Source of the DNA: an uncultured Kordiimonas sp. | GTDB lineage: Bacteria; Pseudomonadota; Alphaproteobacteria; Sphingomonadales; Kordiimonadaceae | Direction: 5' to 3' | DNA: 64,000 bases | Assembly (NCBI GenBank): GCA_947503625.1 | Contig: CANNEK010000001.1 | Span: 434,001-498,000, forward strand | Part shown: positions 2,381-8,577 of the stretch, piece after piece | Numbering within the stretch: position 1 is the stretch's first letter | Layout: every line of letters starts with the position of its first letter | Position numbers and translations under genes: made by a program | The notes under the pieces: model-generated | Told to the model about the DNA's origin: nothing | What the model saw: the letters and a program-made list of their open reading frames with translations, nothing else | Databases searched by the model: none

Positions 2381-4855
2381 TCATTCGCTTTCAGCGCGCG
2401 CCTCAACCAGTTTTTCCATCAGTTTTTTCTCAAGCGCCTGGAATGTCGAGCGTTGCCCTGCGTTTTCCAGATCATTTATGGCTTTGCGCAATATATCTGT
2501 ATCTCCAGATTCAGACGCATCAATATCCACAATAGTAGACGCATAGGCGGTGGCGTCGCCGCCCTCAAGGCCAAGTTCGCCAGCCAGCCACAAACCAAAC
2601 AGCTGATTTCGTTTGGTACGTATTCTCTGTTGTTCCGCTTCTTGCGCTTCCTGTTCCGGAGAACGGACAGGCGTATTCTCAATCGCTTCGAGTGCTGCCG
2701 CCTGTTCGGCCACCCTCTGCTTGCGGTTGTCTTCCGCCAGTCTTTCAAGCTCGGCGAGCAACTCAGACTGATCGTCCTCTGCTTCCAGTACGTCCCGAGA
2801 TTGCTCCAAAATAGCTTCCTGTCTTTTTCTTTCCTCCTCGCGCGCCTTCTCGGCGTCTGCAACCCTCTTGGCGCGAGCAGCCTCCTGGGCTTCGTCTTCT
2901 TCACTTTGGGCTTTTTGCCATTCCTGAATTAAGGGCTCAATATAGGCGATGAAATCCTGATCATATTGACCAAGTCTCTTCGCGTTCTCCGCCAAGGTAA
3001 CTGCACGTGAATAGAAACCAAGTGCCGCAGTGGCTTCAGCCTGGTCCGCCACAACAATGGGAAAATTCGGCATCGCATCTGCTGCCCGGTCAAGATATGG
3101 CAATGCTGCCTCGGGCTCGCCGGTCTCCAGAAGAGACCGCCCCAGCATGGCTTGTACCTGAGGGTCCTCAGTCGAAAGCTTTGCCAGCACTTCGAGGTCG
3201 CTTCTGGCGTTCCCGTACTCTTCTTTCTGAATGTAAGCGAAGGCACGGTTTTTCAGCGCCGATTGATACTCCGGTACCCGCTCAATTGCCCGGCTGTATG
3301 CCTTAATCGCTTCGTCATATTTGCGCTGCCGGTGCAGTATCGCGCCTTGAAGATTGGCTGCTACAGTGCTCTCTGGGTCTATCACCATCAATTGATTGAG
3401 TGCGGTAGACGCCTGATCAAGGTCGCCGGAGGCCAAAAACATATTTGCCTTGTTAGTAAGGCTTTCGGCATCTTCATTGTCGTCCGCATACATAGCATCT
3501 AAAAGAGCTGTCGCTCCATCAAGATCATCATTCAGAAATCGCGCGAATGACGCACGCGTCATCAACTGCCTGATAGTCTCAGGGTCTGTATTTTCGTCTT
3601 GACGGGCAAGTGTTAGGGCTCGCTCAATATACTTGCGCGCAGAACCCAAATCTCCCCTTCCTGCTGCCGCCGATGTGGCATGAACCAGAGCCGTTACGTT
3701 GGTTCCTTCTTCGATAAGTGGCGATAATATCTGCAATGCCTCGGCGGACTGCCCCCGGCGTGCCATGGAGTCTGCCAATGCCAAACGGGTTGAAGGGTCG
3801 TTCGGGAAGAAAAAAAGCGCTCTGCGCAAATAGGGAATAGCCGTAGAGTATTTTTCCAATTCATAGGTGGTCAGCCCATAAACCTGAGCAGCTCTGGGAT
3901 ACTCGCGAGTGAAATCGCCGGTCCTGATCAGCAAGTCTTCCGCTTCATCAAGTTTCCCCTCTCCTACAAGAAGAAGGGCGGAATAATAGTTCGCCATTGG
4001 GTTGTTTGGTGTTGAAGTATAGATGGCATCAAGCTGCTGGCGCGCCAGCTCGAACGAATCCTGCGAAAGATGAATACCGGCGAGTTCAAGCCGGGAAAGG
4101 ACATCTGCCGGGTTCGCCGCCACGGTTTTCTCAAAAAACGCAAGCGCTTCATCAATCTGTCCACTATAGCGCGCGACCATACCCTGAGCGTAACTAATCA
4201 TCGGATCGTCTTGTTCACGTAGAACAGCTTCGGCAACGTTCGCACGAGCATTCTCTATGTCGCCTGCTTGCAAATAGAACAACGCCAGTGCCGTATATCC
4301 GATAAAATTCTCGGGATCATTATCAATCGCTGCCTTGTAGAAGGCCTCGGCGCTTTCAGGCTTGCCCAAAGACTGGGAAATATCGCCGCGCAATACAAGC
4401 CCATTGAACTCGTCTTCTTCTGGCAGCCTTAACCCACGCAATGCTTCGCTCGCGTCTTTGTGTCTGCCCTGCATAACCAATGACTGCGCAAACATGAGCG
4501 CTGTTGTTTCCTCTCCCAAGCCACGGTCACGCAACTTGTAGATTGTCTCTTCCGCAGCAATGCCTGCGCCAAATTTGATGTAGATTTTGGCCAGCAACAG
4601 CATATGCTGGTTGCTCGCGGTTCCTTCGTCACGATAGAACTGCAAAGCATCCAGCGCTTTCTGGTCTTCGCCGTCATCAACAAACTTTTGCAGGTCCTCA
4701 ACGGAATAAGAGCCGAATAGCTCGCGTTTCTTTGCTAGCTCCTCATCTTCGCCGCACGCGATCAATAGAAAAGGCAGCAATGCCGCAAAAAACAGTCGTG
4801 CGACTTTAAATTGGCTGAACATTGGAATTGGTCGGGTCATTGGCTCTTGGTCCAT
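2381..4855 (-). CDS. TPR-repeat lipoprotein with C-terminal DUF1476 domain
   Basis: 824 residues. An N-terminal hydrophobic segment ends in the lipobox LIAC (C34), so the protein is a predicted lipoprotein. Residues about 45-620 are tandem TPR repeats, similar in style to PrsT-type TPR lipoproteins linked to PEP-CTERM/exopolysaccharide systems. About 640-740 is a highly charged K/E/Q/A-rich probable coiled coil. Residues 746-824 match the stand-alone DUF1476 protein at 8254-8577: RTKRNQLFGLWLAGELG against RARRNRLFGEWLAGEMG, then a shared spaced pattern to the end. DUF1476 is the zeta inhibitor family of the F1-ATPase, normally cytoplasmic, so its presence on an exported lipoprotein is odd. 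Three in-frame ATGs (4855, 4840, 4822) lack a clear ribosome site; the start is uncertain. Confidence 0.85.
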   Translation of the reverse strand: MDQEPMTRPIPMFSQFKVARLFFAALLPFLLIACGEDEELAKKRELFGSYSVEDLQKFVDDGEDQKALDALQFYRDEGTASNQHMLLLAKIYIKFGAGIAAEETIYKLRDRGLGEETTALMFAQSLVMQGRHKDASEALRGLRLPEEDEFNGLVLRGDISQSLGKPESAEAFYKAAIDNDPENFIGYTALALFYLQAGDIENARANVAEAVLREQDDPMISYAQGMVARYSGQIDEALAFFEKTVAANPADVLSRLELAGIHLSQDSFELARQQLDAIYTSTPNNPMANYYSALLLVGEGKLDEAEDLLIRTGDFTREYPRAAQVYGLTTYELEKYSTAIPYLRRALFFFPNDPSTRLALADSMARRGQSAEALQILSPLIEEGTNVTALVHATSAAAGRGDLGSARKYIERALTLARQDENTDPETIRQLMTRASFARFLNDDLDGATALLDAMYADDNEDAESLTNKANMFLASGDLDQASTALNQLMVIDPESTVAANLQGAILHRQRKYDEAIKAYSRAIERVPEYQSALKNRAFAYIQKEEYGNARSDLEVLAKLSTEDPQVQAMLGRSLLETGEPEAALPYLDRAADAMPNFPIVVADQAEATAALGFYSRAVTLAENAKRLGQYDQDFIAYIEPLIQEWQKAQSEEDEAQEAARAKRVADAEKAREEERKRQEAILEQSRDVLEAEDDQSELLAELERLAEDNRKQRVAEQAAALEAIENTPVRSPEQEAQEAEQQRIRTKRNQLFGLWLAGELGLEGGDATAYASTIVDIDASESGDTDILRKAINDLENAGQRSTFQALEKKLMEKLVEARAESE

Positions 4856-4940
4856 CAGTAATGATAATTATGCTCGGCCACCCATTCACCGCGCAACTAA
4901 TCATAATATAAAGTCGGTGTCTCTGCCTTTATGCCAGAGC

Positions 4941-4991
4941 TGATACAAGTTTTGTTGATTATTGATACAAATTGCACTATTATTATCAACA
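4941..4991. promoter_or_regulatory. putative operator upstream of PEP-CTERM gene
   Basis: In the 217-base divergent gap between the TPR lipoprotein and PEP-CTERM genes, TGATACAA occurs twice as a direct repeat (4941 and 4963, 22 bases apart). An imperfect inverted repeat TGTTGATTAT / ATTATCAACA (4953-4962 and 4982-4991, 9 of 10 pairs) overlaps it. Spacing of two helical turns suggests a protein binding site. No regulator is identified. Confidence 0.3.
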
Positions 4992-5072
4992 GTAATTAAA
5001 GATTGGGTTGTCGGGCGGTCAGCAGACACAGTGAAGTGTCGTGGCTGCCTTTCTATTTGGATTGGAAAGTAA

Positions 5073-5798
5073 GTGATTCCAGTTGGAACAGTTTTCAGGT
5101 CTCTGACCCTTGGGTTGTCTTTGATTGGCTTGAGTAGTGTCATGACCACATCTGCAAGCGCTACATTTTACTGGGATGTTACTGCCGACGCAGGAAGTTT
5201 TGCTCCCGTTGTTCTCGGCGATGATATTTCTCTGGATGCGTGTAGCTCCCGCCTGCACGTCGCAAACAACCCTAGCGGCGCAGGAACATCTGTTTGTAAT
5301 CTCGTTAACGTCTCGTTGTTTAGCGTAAACTGGTTTGCGAAAAATATCACCACTGGTGCATTTTCCTGGCTGACAGGTGGCTTGGGCAGCAACCAGAATC
5401 CAAACCTTTACAGCCTTCCTAACGGAACCGCGGCAGCCAACAGCCAGACCACAACTGCGACAGGCTCCGGTACTTTTTTTGATAGCGTTGGAACATATGC
5501 GATCGGGGTCTATGTAGCGAGCACAACGACATACACCAATTTCACAGAATCCATCAGCAACGGCGGCGCACCATTCAATTATACAGCCAGTTTTGGTGGC
5601 GACTTCACTTCATCGCTTTCAAGCGCATTCAACTCAAATGGATATTTGAACAATGCAGCTGCCTGGAGTTCAAACTTCACCATCAGCGAGCCCGTGACCG
5701 TGCCAGAACCGGAAGCTGTTTTCCTATTGCTGTCGGGCTTTGGAATGATTGCCATGCGCGAACGACGCAGGCGCAGGAAGTCTATGCTTCAAGCTTAG
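5073..5798 (+). CDS. PEP-CTERM sorting domain protein
   Basis: 241 residues: N-terminal Sec signal peptide (cleavage likely after TTSASA), a Ser/Thr/Asn/Gly-rich beta-type body of unknown fold, then the sorting signal at 210-236: the VPEP motif, a hydrophobic stretch LLLSGFGMIA and a basic tail RERRRRRK. Such proteins are processed by an exosortase and released or anchored at the outer surface. The start is GTG 5073: an in-frame TAA sits immediately upstream and GGAAAG is five bases before it. It diverges from the TPR lipoprotein. No exosortase is in the window, so the processing enzyme must be elsewhere. Confidence 0.85.
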   Translation: MIPVGTVFRSLTLGLSLIGLSSVMTTSASATFYWDVTADAGSFAPVVLGDDISLDACSSRLHVANNPSGAGTSVCNLVNVSLFSVNWFAKNITTGAFSWLTGGLGSNQNPNLYSLPNGTAAANSQTTTATGSGTFFDSVGTYAIGVYVASTTTYTNFTESISNGGAPFNYTASFGGDFTSSLSSAFNSNGYLNNAAAWSSNFTISEPVTVPEPEAVFLLLSGFGMIAMRERRRRRKSMLQA

Positions 5799-5850: not shown

Positions 5851-8097
5851 TCACACTAACTGATCTGCGATTGGTAATTTGCGGATCCTCTTCCCGGTCA
5901 ATTGAAAGATAGAGTCAGTTAATGCTGCTGCGAATGGTGGCACAGAAATTTCTCCTGTTCCGAAGACTTCGTCACTGCCCTGAATGATATGAGTATCAAC
6001 CGAAGGCGGCGCATCAGCGATAAGCATCATCTGATAGCTGTCGAAGTTGGTTTTAACAGCCCTACCCTGCTCAAATACCGCTTCCTGATAGAGGGTTGCG
6101 GAAAGCGCATCATTAATGCCGCCTTCGATTTGCGCTTTTGCCCCGTTCGGGTTCAAACACAAGCCGCAATCTAATGCTGCCGTGACTTTATGCACCACAG
6201 GGCGCCCACCTTTCATGCTTGTTTCTACGACAAGCGCACAGTAACTTCCGAATGTGAAATACCCCGCAATACCACGAGCGCGTCCCGCCGGTGCGGGCGA
6301 AAACCAGCCAGCCTCATCAGCCGCTTTTTGAAGGCAGTTTGCCAGCCTTTCCGGGCTCCAGGTAGGGCCACCCCAATGGTCATAGGGCAATTCTTCATGG
6401 CCGCGCAAAAGGCCTAATCGAAACGCCAGCGGATCTGTCCCTGCAGCTTCCGCAAGTTCATTCACAAAACTTTCGGTAATAAACCCTTGCTGCGACGGCA
6501 TGGGCGCGCGCCAGGGTCCTTGCATGATGCTCCATTCCTCTGAGTGAAAGTCGAGTTCGAAGTTTTCAACCAGATTACGAGGAAAATTTCCTTCCCACAC
6601 TGTTTCCAAATAGAGTTGGTCAGCGGGAGGCCTGCCACCATCTGTTGTCGTCGCATGGGCGCTGGTATGGTGCCAACCAACTATTTTGCCTTGCGCGTCA
6701 AGGCCTGCGCGCAAACGCTGGCATGAGGTCACTCGATATCCATCAACGGAAAGATCACTCTCCCGGCTCCAAACCAGTTTGACAGGTCTACCTACCTTTT
6801 TGGATATTTCATAGGCTTCCACCACATAGTCAGACCATAATCGCCTGCCAAAACTGCCGCCGGTGCGCGTAAGTTCGCAATGAATGGCATCCATATCGAG
6901 ACCCGAGCGGCGGGCAATGTGTGACAAGGTTGTTCCTGTGTTATGCCCGGGTTCGATTATTACAACTTCATCCAGTTTTGCATGAACAATACAGTTCATT
7001 GGCTCCATTGTGCCATGTGCGATGGAAGGCAGCACATATTTGACATCCAGGATTTTATGCGCGCCAGAAATAGCATCGGCGCCTTGCCCGTCTTTTAAAA
7101 CAGGCGCACCCTTCTCTGAAACCAGTTCATCTAAACGCAGATGAAGCGCTTTGGTGCTGTCGGTATTATCGTCGACCCAATCGACCTTCAGAGCCTTCAA
7201 GCCCCGTTGCGCGGCCCAATATGTCTCGGCGACCACCGCAATCGCTACTTTCTGATAGTGATTGTCGGTTGGTTCTTCAAGGCGCACAATGTTTGTCACA
7301 CCGGAAACATTCATTGCAGCATCTGCTTCGATTGATCCAATCGTCGCTGTGCGCGTAGGCGCATGCAAGATAGACGCATGGAGCATATCAGGCATCTCGG
7401 CGTCAATCCCGAATACAGCATCTCCGGTTACAACCTCGGTAACCCCTTTACTTTTTTGATCCGAGCCAATCAGGTCAAAATTCTCGACATCCTTAAGAGC
7501 CACTTCAGCGAGATTGTCCAACTCGGGAAACGGCATGGTTGCAGCCAGCGTCGCAAAGTCAGAAAAAGGGAACCGCTCACCACTGCCTGAAACCTGAATA
7601 TGGGAGGCCGATGTAGATAACCGGGACATGGACAGGCCCAGCTGCTCGGCTGCCGCCCTTAAAAGGAGGTCGCGTGTCAACGCTGCAACCTGCCGGATCG
7701 GACGCCAGGTGCGTCTAGTAGTGAAACTGCCTCCCCCGCCCTGCGGCCCGAACGCCCAACTGGACTGGCCTTCAGCGTTCTTTCTGAGTGTAACGGGCAA
7801 TTGTCGCACACTTATTGTTTCGAAGTCTGCCCCCACTTCTTCCGCCACCAACATTGCCGCTGTCGTATGCATGCCAGTACCGATTTCTGGCGACGGGCAA
7901 CCAACAATGATGCTGTTGTCCGGCTGAATGGTGATAAACGGGCCGACTTCGCCCCTGAAGTTCAGCAGGAGTTTTGTGTCTGCACTTTGCGCCGCTTTGG
8001 CAGCAAGGGTGCCGTTTGCCACAACAAAAGCACCTCCACCCAATAAAACCCTGATAAAATTGCGGCGATCAATACCCGTAATCCTGTCGTCTTCCAC
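5851..8097 (-). CDS. xanthine dehydrogenase-family molybdopterin subunit (IorB-like)
   Basis: 748 residues. A twin-arginine signal (DRRNFIRV, then a hydrophobic stretch ending LAAKAA) predicts Tat export of a folded, cofactor-loaded protein. The body matches the large subunit of isoquinoline 1-oxidoreductase / periplasmic aldehyde oxidase, with a glycine-rich GPQGGGGSF stretch, the TGGSFGRR motif and, near the C-terminus, GTGEISVPP holding the expected catalytic glutamate. The start is GTG 8097 with AAGGG upstream. Members normally work with a small 2Fe-2S subunit (IorA) and often a cytochrome c. Neither is adjacent, so the electron acceptor is unknown. Substrate is probably an N-heterocycle or aldehyde (inference). 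Confidence 0.85.
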   Translation of the reverse strand: MEDDRITGIDRRNFIRVLLGGGAFVVANGTLAAKAAQSADTKLLLNFRGEVGPFITIQPDNSIIVGCPSPEIGTGMHTTAAMLVAEEVGADFETISVRQLPVTLRKNAEGQSSWAFGPQGGGGSFTTRRTWRPIRQVAALTRDLLLRAAAEQLGLSMSRLSTSASHIQVSGSGERFPFSDFATLAATMPFPELDNLAEVALKDVENFDLIGSDQKSKGVTEVVTGDAVFGIDAEMPDMLHASILHAPTRTATIGSIEADAAMNVSGVTNIVRLEEPTDNHYQKVAIAVVAETYWAAQRGLKALKVDWVDDNTDSTKALHLRLDELVSEKGAPVLKDGQGADAISGAHKILDVKYVLPSIAHGTMEPMNCIVHAKLDEVVIIEPGHNTGTTLSHIARRSGLDMDAIHCELTRTGGSFGRRLWSDYVVEAYEISKKVGRPVKLVWSRESDLSVDGYRVTSCQRLRAGLDAQGKIVGWHHTSAHATTTDGGRPPADQLYLETVWEGNFPRNLVENFELDFHSEEWSIMQGPWRAPMPSQQGFITESFVNELAEAAGTDPLAFRLGLLRGHEELPYDHWGGPTWSPERLANCLQKAADEAGWFSPAPAGRARGIAGYFTFGSYCALVVETSMKGGRPVVHKVTAALDCGLCLNPNGAKAQIEGGINDALSATLYQEAVFEQGRAVKTNFDSYQMMLIADAPPSVDTHIIQGSDEVFGTGEISVPPFAAALTDSIFQLTGKRIRKLPIADQLV

Positions 8098-8253: not shown

Positions 8254-8577
8254 CTAAGACTCAGCCATCACCTGACTTTTGGCTTCATCCATAAAAGACT
8301 GCAGTTTCTTCGCAATATCTTCATCACTCATGCTCTTGGCACTTTTTTCGAGATCGGCTTTAACCTTGCGAATTACGTCATCATCGCCCTCTTCCTCAAG
8401 GTCTGCGGCAACAACGGAACCAGCATAGTCTTTTACTTCGTCGCCGCTCATGCCCATCTCTCCGGCAAGCCATTCACCAAACAGTCGGTTACGACGCGCC
8501 CGCGCCCGAAACATGAGATCCGCATCATGGGCAAATTTGTCTTCGAATGCTTTCTCGCGGCTGTCAAAAGTGGTCAT
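8254..8577 (-). CDS. DUF1476 protein (F1-ATPase zeta inhibitor family)
   Basis: 107 residues, the family's usual length, found almost only in alphaproteobacteria. The N-terminal part (FEDKFAHD..., ARRNRLFGEWLAGEMG) matches the zeta subunit, which in Paracoccus blocks ATP hydrolysis by the F1 sector through its N-terminal segment. Position next to purC is a conserved alphaproteobacterial arrangement. It has its own terminator and diverges from purC across a 230-base gap that must hold both promoters. A second copy of this domain forms the C-terminus of the TPR lipoprotein 4 kb away. Confidence 0.9.
   Translation of the reverse strand: MTTFDSREKAFEDKFAHDADLMFRARARRNRLFGEWLAGEMGMSGDEVKDYAGSVVAADLEEEGDDDVIRKVKADLEKSAKSMSDEDIAKKLQSFMDEAKSQVMAES

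Follow-up and report, generated by a model that had tools for sequence, protein, structure and literature searches.

The zeta subunit (DUF1476; ATPaseInh_sub_z, PF07345 in Pfam) is treated as a subunit of the alphaproteobacterial F1-ATPase in the accessible parts of two studies (PMC10469736, PMC9317440), the first of which terms its N-terminus inhibitory. The available text of a third study describes residues 1–18 as unstructured in solution and residues 19–103 as a four-helix bundle; in the F1FO complex, residues 1–32 form an inhibitory helix (PMC5795051). The same text states that zeta truncated at the N-terminus failed to give inhibition and that helix 4 contacts an α subunit of F1, and its title result is that deleting zeta in P. 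denitrificans is not sufficient for activating hydrolysis. PrsT belongs to a different setting: in the part of the source available, it is named as a tetratricopeptide repeat (TPR) lipoprotein of the PEP-CTERM system (PMC1569441). In Aquincola tertiaricarbonis, prsT and the adjacent pepA are both involved in floc formation, according to the accessible part of PMC9850573.

Here we describe a Kordiimonas protein in which these two families are joined. The window, by which we mean the whole 64,000-nucleotide stretch analysed, comes from an uncultured Kordiimonas. One uninterrupted open reading frame at 2381–4855 on the minus strand encodes 824 residues, a PrsT-like TPR lipoprotein with a C-terminal zeta domain. 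It begins with a signal peptide with the lipobox LIAC (4754–4855, minus strand), assigned by a pattern test, with Cys34 as the only cysteine of the mature protein and Gly at +2. A TPR superhelix follows, up to about residue 648 (2912–4753, minus strand), supported by Pfam TPR matches, a 790-residue structural model and Foldseek matches to TPR proteins. Next comes a charged, coiled-coil-like linker (2642–2911, minus strand), supported by the alignment of the fused proteins, a comparison of C-termini and long helices in the models; it is longer in the fused proteins than in their unfused relatives. The protein ends in a four-helix bundle that is predicted to be of the zeta type and lacks the motif found at the N-terminus of free zeta (2393–2641, minus strand). 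A separate, complete zeta gene lies at 8254–8577 on the minus strand, covering PF07345 positions 1–102 with an E-value of 3.8e-38 and its N-terminal motif intact. An initial annotation of this DNA had proposed the same order, in which DUF1476 comes after the lipobox, the TPRs and a coiled coil, and that order was borne out.

The profile search confirmed DUF1476 at the C-terminus. PF07345 matched residues 739–821 with 63.1 bits against a cut-off of 25 (E 3.6e-17), spanning profile positions 19–101 of 102, and the C-terminal 95 residues alone gave an E-value of 3.1e-19. The interval first assigned to the domain, 2384–2620, was right, the profile match starting seven residues earlier at nucleotide 2641, and the alignment of the last 79 residues with the free DUF1476 protein was reproduced by BLASTP (41% identity over 79 aa, E 6e-19). 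A sequence search of the PDB at E ≤ 1 returned only three distinct sequences, all zeta-family chains: 2ll0/2mdz/5dn6 (1.4e-12), 2kzc (2e-11) and 7vkv (2.5e-9). Within the source genome, PF07345 matched this locus and the free gene and nothing else; among related genomes, all six fused copies that we found scored over the cut-off.

Chance or coiled-coil bias was considered as the cause of the match. With a control HMM built on 24 free zetas, taken from the genus and the family, the six fused proteins scored 55.9–74.1 bits, seven of the nine unfused relatives were reported at no more than 0.8 bits and the other two were unreported, while 1,800 shuffles of the fused domains reached a maximum of 10.0 bits. 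The shuffles and the unfused relatives together rule that explanation out. An assembly artefact is very unlikely as the origin of the fusion, because the same fusion occurs in six separate genomes, including that of the isolate K. aquimaris JCM 16665.

We then compared predicted structures of the fused domain with solved ones. The AlphaFold model of the C-terminal part contains four helices (114–141, 147–162, 167–179 and 186–204), with block pLDDT values of 82–95 across residues 121–205. VIA-align superposed it on 2kzc with Z 13.4 and 1.5 Å over 82 residues, although for helical bundles Z values as high as about 13 may be commonplace; the values were Z 9.7 and 5.4 Å for 2ll0, and Z 8.7 and 3.5 Å for 7vkv. 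These three zeta entries were the top solved matches, the best unrelated row reaching Z 6.3, and Foldseek also placed 2kzc and 7vkv at the top. The alignment behind this model included eight free zetas, which could bias it, so its likeness to zeta is not independent. When the alignment contained no free zeta, the resulting model of 790 residues again had four helices in the corresponding positions (699–726, 732–744, 752–764 and 771–789), with short helices through residues 2–594; the best 50 Foldseek rows for the full-length model were dominated by TPR proteins and others built of similar helical repeats. The models predict that the fused domain folds as the zeta four-helix bundle, as the initial annotation had anticipated.

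The profile match, the predicted bundle and 20 positions conserved alike in the fused and free sets link the domain to the zeta subunits of known structure (2ll0, 2kzc, 7vkv, 5dn6). It differs from them in that it lacks the N-terminal motif, forms the C-terminus of an 824-residue lipoprotein and is predicted to be extracytoplasmic. By score and by predicted fold it belongs to the PF07345 family; the conserved segment at the N-terminus of that family, which is linked to inhibition, is absent. The motif M[TA][TI]FxxRE.. opens all 24 free zetas examined and is found in none of the six fused copies, whose PF07345 matches start at positions 9 (the earliest, in G001), 16, 16, 19, 22 and 26. Since the inhibitory helix comprises zeta residues 1–32 in the complex, part of it (19–32) is still covered by the fused copy. 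Judged by its sequence, then, the fused domain is the bundle minus its working tip, overlapping the base of the inhibitory helix.

Could such a domain still act on the F1-ATPase? For this, the protein would have to stay inside or have a cytoplasmic form, serving as a membrane-tethered regulator. The retained fold core and the 20 shared positions fit this idea, as do helices at the places of helix 4 and of the inhibitory helix (up to residue 32) as these are given in the accessible text of PMC5795051. The missing motif speaks against it, and so do 13 positions that are conserved in free zetas and not in the fused set, with three more conserved in both sets as different residues. A complete free zeta gene is also kept in all six genomes with the fusion. 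Because the motif is missing from every fused copy while the free gene is complete in every one of these genomes, the fused copy is unlikely to stand in for the free inhibitor, and the cytoplasmic job is covered by the free gene.

The predicted location of the protein bears on the same question. Of the 15 TPR proteins of the locus, 14 show a lipoprotein pattern, all six fused ones among them; the fifteenth reads LHAC. In those 14 proteins the +2 residue is Gly or Ser, and a second cysteine is missing from all six fused proteins. The lipobox and the lack of a second cysteine in the fused proteins favour export, and we infer that the fused protein is exported and lipid-anchored; a point against this is the frame in G018, which offers no ATG ahead of its lipobox. 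In E. coli, Gly or Ser at +2 would send a lipoprotein to the outer membrane. The envelope placement suggested in the initial annotation gained the lipobox in six of six fused proteins and the absence of another cysteine, support that comes from sequence only. The lipobox argues against access of the fused domain to F1, and F1 control seems to us unlikely, a reading to which we give little weight.

Apart from zeta, the protein resembles PrsT. TIGR02917 (PrsT) was its best NCBIfam match, at 201 bits where 312.2 are required, and we call it PrsT-like on that account. As in PrsT of the XrtA/PEP-CTERM system, it is a TPR protein with a lipoprotein signal, a PEP-CTERM-like gene is adjacent to its own, and EpsH exosortase and PEP-CTERM proteins are encoded in the genome. 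It differs in its score below the cut-off and in that a true PrsT is also encoded in the same genome, over the cut-off and 12 kb from EpsH. Across the genus, EpsH was over its cut-off in 19 of 19 genomes and PrsT in 18 of 19. The arrangement also resembles the prsT-pepA pair of Aquincola, with a TPR lipoprotein gene adjoining a PEP-CTERM gene. In the accessible part of that report, however, pepA precedes prsT and depends on RpoN, whereas the Kordiimonas pair is divergent and we found no sigma-54 site beyond chance: a pattern of our own matched once in 19 intergenic stretches upstream of PEP-CTERM genes, where 0.4 matches are expected by chance.

The proposed partner is encoded at 5073–5798 on the plus strand, divergent from the TPR gene, and its product ends in VPEP, a hydrophobic stretch and RRRRR. 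It is PEP-CTERM-like in the sense that it scored 17.8 bits with Pfam PEP-CTERM (cut-off 20.7) and also stayed below the cut-offs of the NCBIfam PEP-CTERM families. Four of six partner proteins tested passed the TIGR02595 cut-off of 16 bits, three from the source genome (L105, L106, L107) and one from G018 (L110); the window's own partner and L109 missed it. A relative of the window's PEP-CTERM protein stands beside all 15 TPR genes of the locus (14 mapped plus the window), the partner in G008 being cut by the contig end and that of G005a lacking the C-terminal pattern. PEP-CTERM-like neighbours were likewise present at eight of eight paralogous TPR loci examined, and the true PrsT locus is without one. 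In the source genome alone, a PrsT-like TPR lipoprotein gene is paired with a divergent PEP-CTERM-like gene at least four times (window 2381–5798, L105:2817–5517, L106:1802–4819 and L107:2112–4929). Sister pairs occur in other Kordiimonas genomes, and in one of these pairs (L111) both genes are on the same strand.

We compared the two halves of these pairs by their distance matrices. The comparison covered 21 pairs, of which 20 are divergent and one is same-strand. The TPR and PEP-CTERM matrices correlated with r 0.84, a value that none of 2,000 permutations reached, and the true pairing ranked first of 13,824 within-genome re-pairings. This shows that the TPR and PEP-CTERM genes were inherited jointly; contact between the proteins is not proven by it, since linkage alone can give this result.

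Pfam bore out the neighbouring genes as MFS and PurC. Between the PEP-CTERM gene and zeta, the window contains a gene for a molybdopterin-cofactor-binding oxidoreductase (5851–8097; Pfam MoCoBD_1 and MoCoBD_2), whose product starts with RRNF and looks Tat-like by eye; among the mapped loci, it recurs only in G017. At the zeta–MFS locus of G007 (L070:4482–11488) and G005 (L073:4039–10190), two PEP-CTERM/TPR pairs stand in tandem.

We followed the fusion through a sample of 19 Kordiimonas genomes that includes K. aquimaris JCM 16665, K. gwangyangensis and uncultured Kordiimonas. Six genomes carry it (G000, G017, G018, G008, G013 and G001). Seven have complete unfused orthologues (G002, G003, G005, G006, G007, G010 and G016), with two copies each in G005 and G007, and in G012 an unfused gene is apparently split across contigs. 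In G004, G014 and G015, zeta directly adjoins the MFS gene with no TPR/PEP-CTERM pair at the locus, and we take the module to be absent or lost there for that reason. G009 and G011 were left out of the presence/absence calls.

In phylogenetic trees the fused copies group together: all six lie on one side of a branch with support 100/100 in the TPR tree, and they cluster with support 98/96 in the domain tree, both trees being rooted at the midpoint only. As they group in both trees, they are most simply explained by a single origin. Five of the fused proteins were included in a rougher tree that also contained outside paralogues, and because these five nest together among unfused ones, it favours one gain; we infer gain rather than loss of the domain. 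Most mapped loci have the zeta gene upstream of the TPR gene, which suggests local copying, and the likely source of the fused domain is this zeta gene a few kilobases upstream. The domain tree, built on 84 columns, does not show where among the free zetas the fused copies belong, so it gives no proof that the adjacent zeta is the source gene.

Beyond the genus, PF07345 was present in 27 of 29 family, 233 of 246 order and 247 of 385 class genomes (overlapping samples), and in the order sample only the six Kordiimonas genomes had two matches. The class sample contained 16 further genomes with two matches, in frames of 61–207 aa apart from one of 482 aa that contains a complete zeta with its own start. 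We also checked 32 single-match genomes for a lone fused copy, among them those whose best match seen was weaker than 1e-20, the range expected of a lone fusion. Their frames measured 57–159 aa, with one of 473 aa that carries its PF07345 match from position 1. Of 15 regions that had long frames or an odd second copy, 12 matched the core pattern and three (L091, L103 and L104) did not. Ten frames longer than 300 aa were considered as fusions and rejected: each holds a complete zeta with its own start, and the upstream part looks untranslated by eye. At two loci of other Alphaproteobacteria, L092 (G589) and L091 (G372), the second zeta matches begin only at profile position 25 or 28 and are without the usual N-terminus.

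The initial annotation had suggested that DUF1476 may be a general, mobile peptide-binding or regulatory module, of which this fusion would be one use among many. Second matches in 16 other class genomes, some starting at position 25, 28 or later, would suit that view, as would the moonlighting role of zeta proposed for Zymomonas in the accessible part of PMC9317440. The ten long frames with complete zetas speak against it, and no other zeta fusion was found among the matches listed from the 29 family, 246 order and 385 class genomes. Among these matches, fusions in further genomes turned up within Kordiimonas and not beyond it, and with the fused proteins forming one group in one genus, the general-module idea is very improbable.

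A more serious alternative is a passive role, in which the domain is no more than a C-terminal tail or spacer that persists because it folds and has no binding partner of its own. Complete orthologues do without the domain in seven genomes, and G014, G015 and G004 do without the whole PEP-CTERM/TPR pair at the locus. In each of the 15 pairs compared, the domain has also evolved more quickly than free zeta. Between G000 and G017, identity is 56% in the domain and 81% in the TPRs. Against a merely tolerated tail stands its pN/pS of 0.35–0.57, below 0.6 in all 15 pairs with synonymous sites near saturation (pS 0.67–0.95), although these ratios are crude. The corresponding values were 0.08–0.33 for free zeta and 0.15–0.49 for the TPR part. 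Twelve positions, such as T786, A799, G800 and Q806, exceed the conservation threshold in the fused set only, a threshold that a set of six sequences passes easily. On these substitution patterns, purifying selection maintains the fused domain, less tightly than it maintains free zeta. We regard the passive tail as the strongest rival and still as unlikely.

The reading we prefer, at a probability of roughly 60%, is that an exported PrsT-like lipoprotein took on the zeta bundle to serve as a docking head at its C-terminus, in a role unrelated to F1 control. The bundle would have been acquired in the common ancestor of a single group of Kordiimonas, by a PrsT-like lipoprotein whose partner was one PEP-CTERM-like surface protein. 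In that event the nearby zeta gene would have been copied onto the 3′ end of the TPR gene, behind a longer coiled coil. While the PEP-CTERM partner is being exported or displayed at the surface, the TPR superhelix may grip it; the coiled coil would present the bundle for docking to another envelope protein or for self-assembly; the bundle itself would play no part in controlling F1. Only tentatively do we suggest the more specific version, in which the bundle, otherwise known chiefly from a cytosolic brake of the F1 motor, has been exported and now has the specialised task of a recognition head, carried by an envelope adaptor that serves a dedicated PEP-CTERM surface protein.

Both halves of the protein are known families; as far as our searches show, the combination, the apparent compartment and the missing N-terminal motif are new. 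We found no earlier report of the TPR–zeta combination, and no paper linking Kordiimonas with PEP-CTERM, in the open-access literature searched. In the accessible text of PMC10469736 the word "fusion" does not occur, and in that of PMC9317440 neither "fused" nor "periplasm" does.

This protein is in effect a natural construct, a zeta bundle without its N-terminal motif in what is apparently another compartment, and it would reveal the capacity that the bundle has of its own. The PEP-CTERM/TPR-lipoprotein pairs, for their part, offer a testable handle on the role of PrsT-like proteins for exosortase cargo. Its sequence suggests that a well-known domain of energy control has been put to a new use beyond the cytoplasm. 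If true, the protein would clearly exemplify how a regulator of bioenergetics can become a domain for protein sorting or surface assembly.
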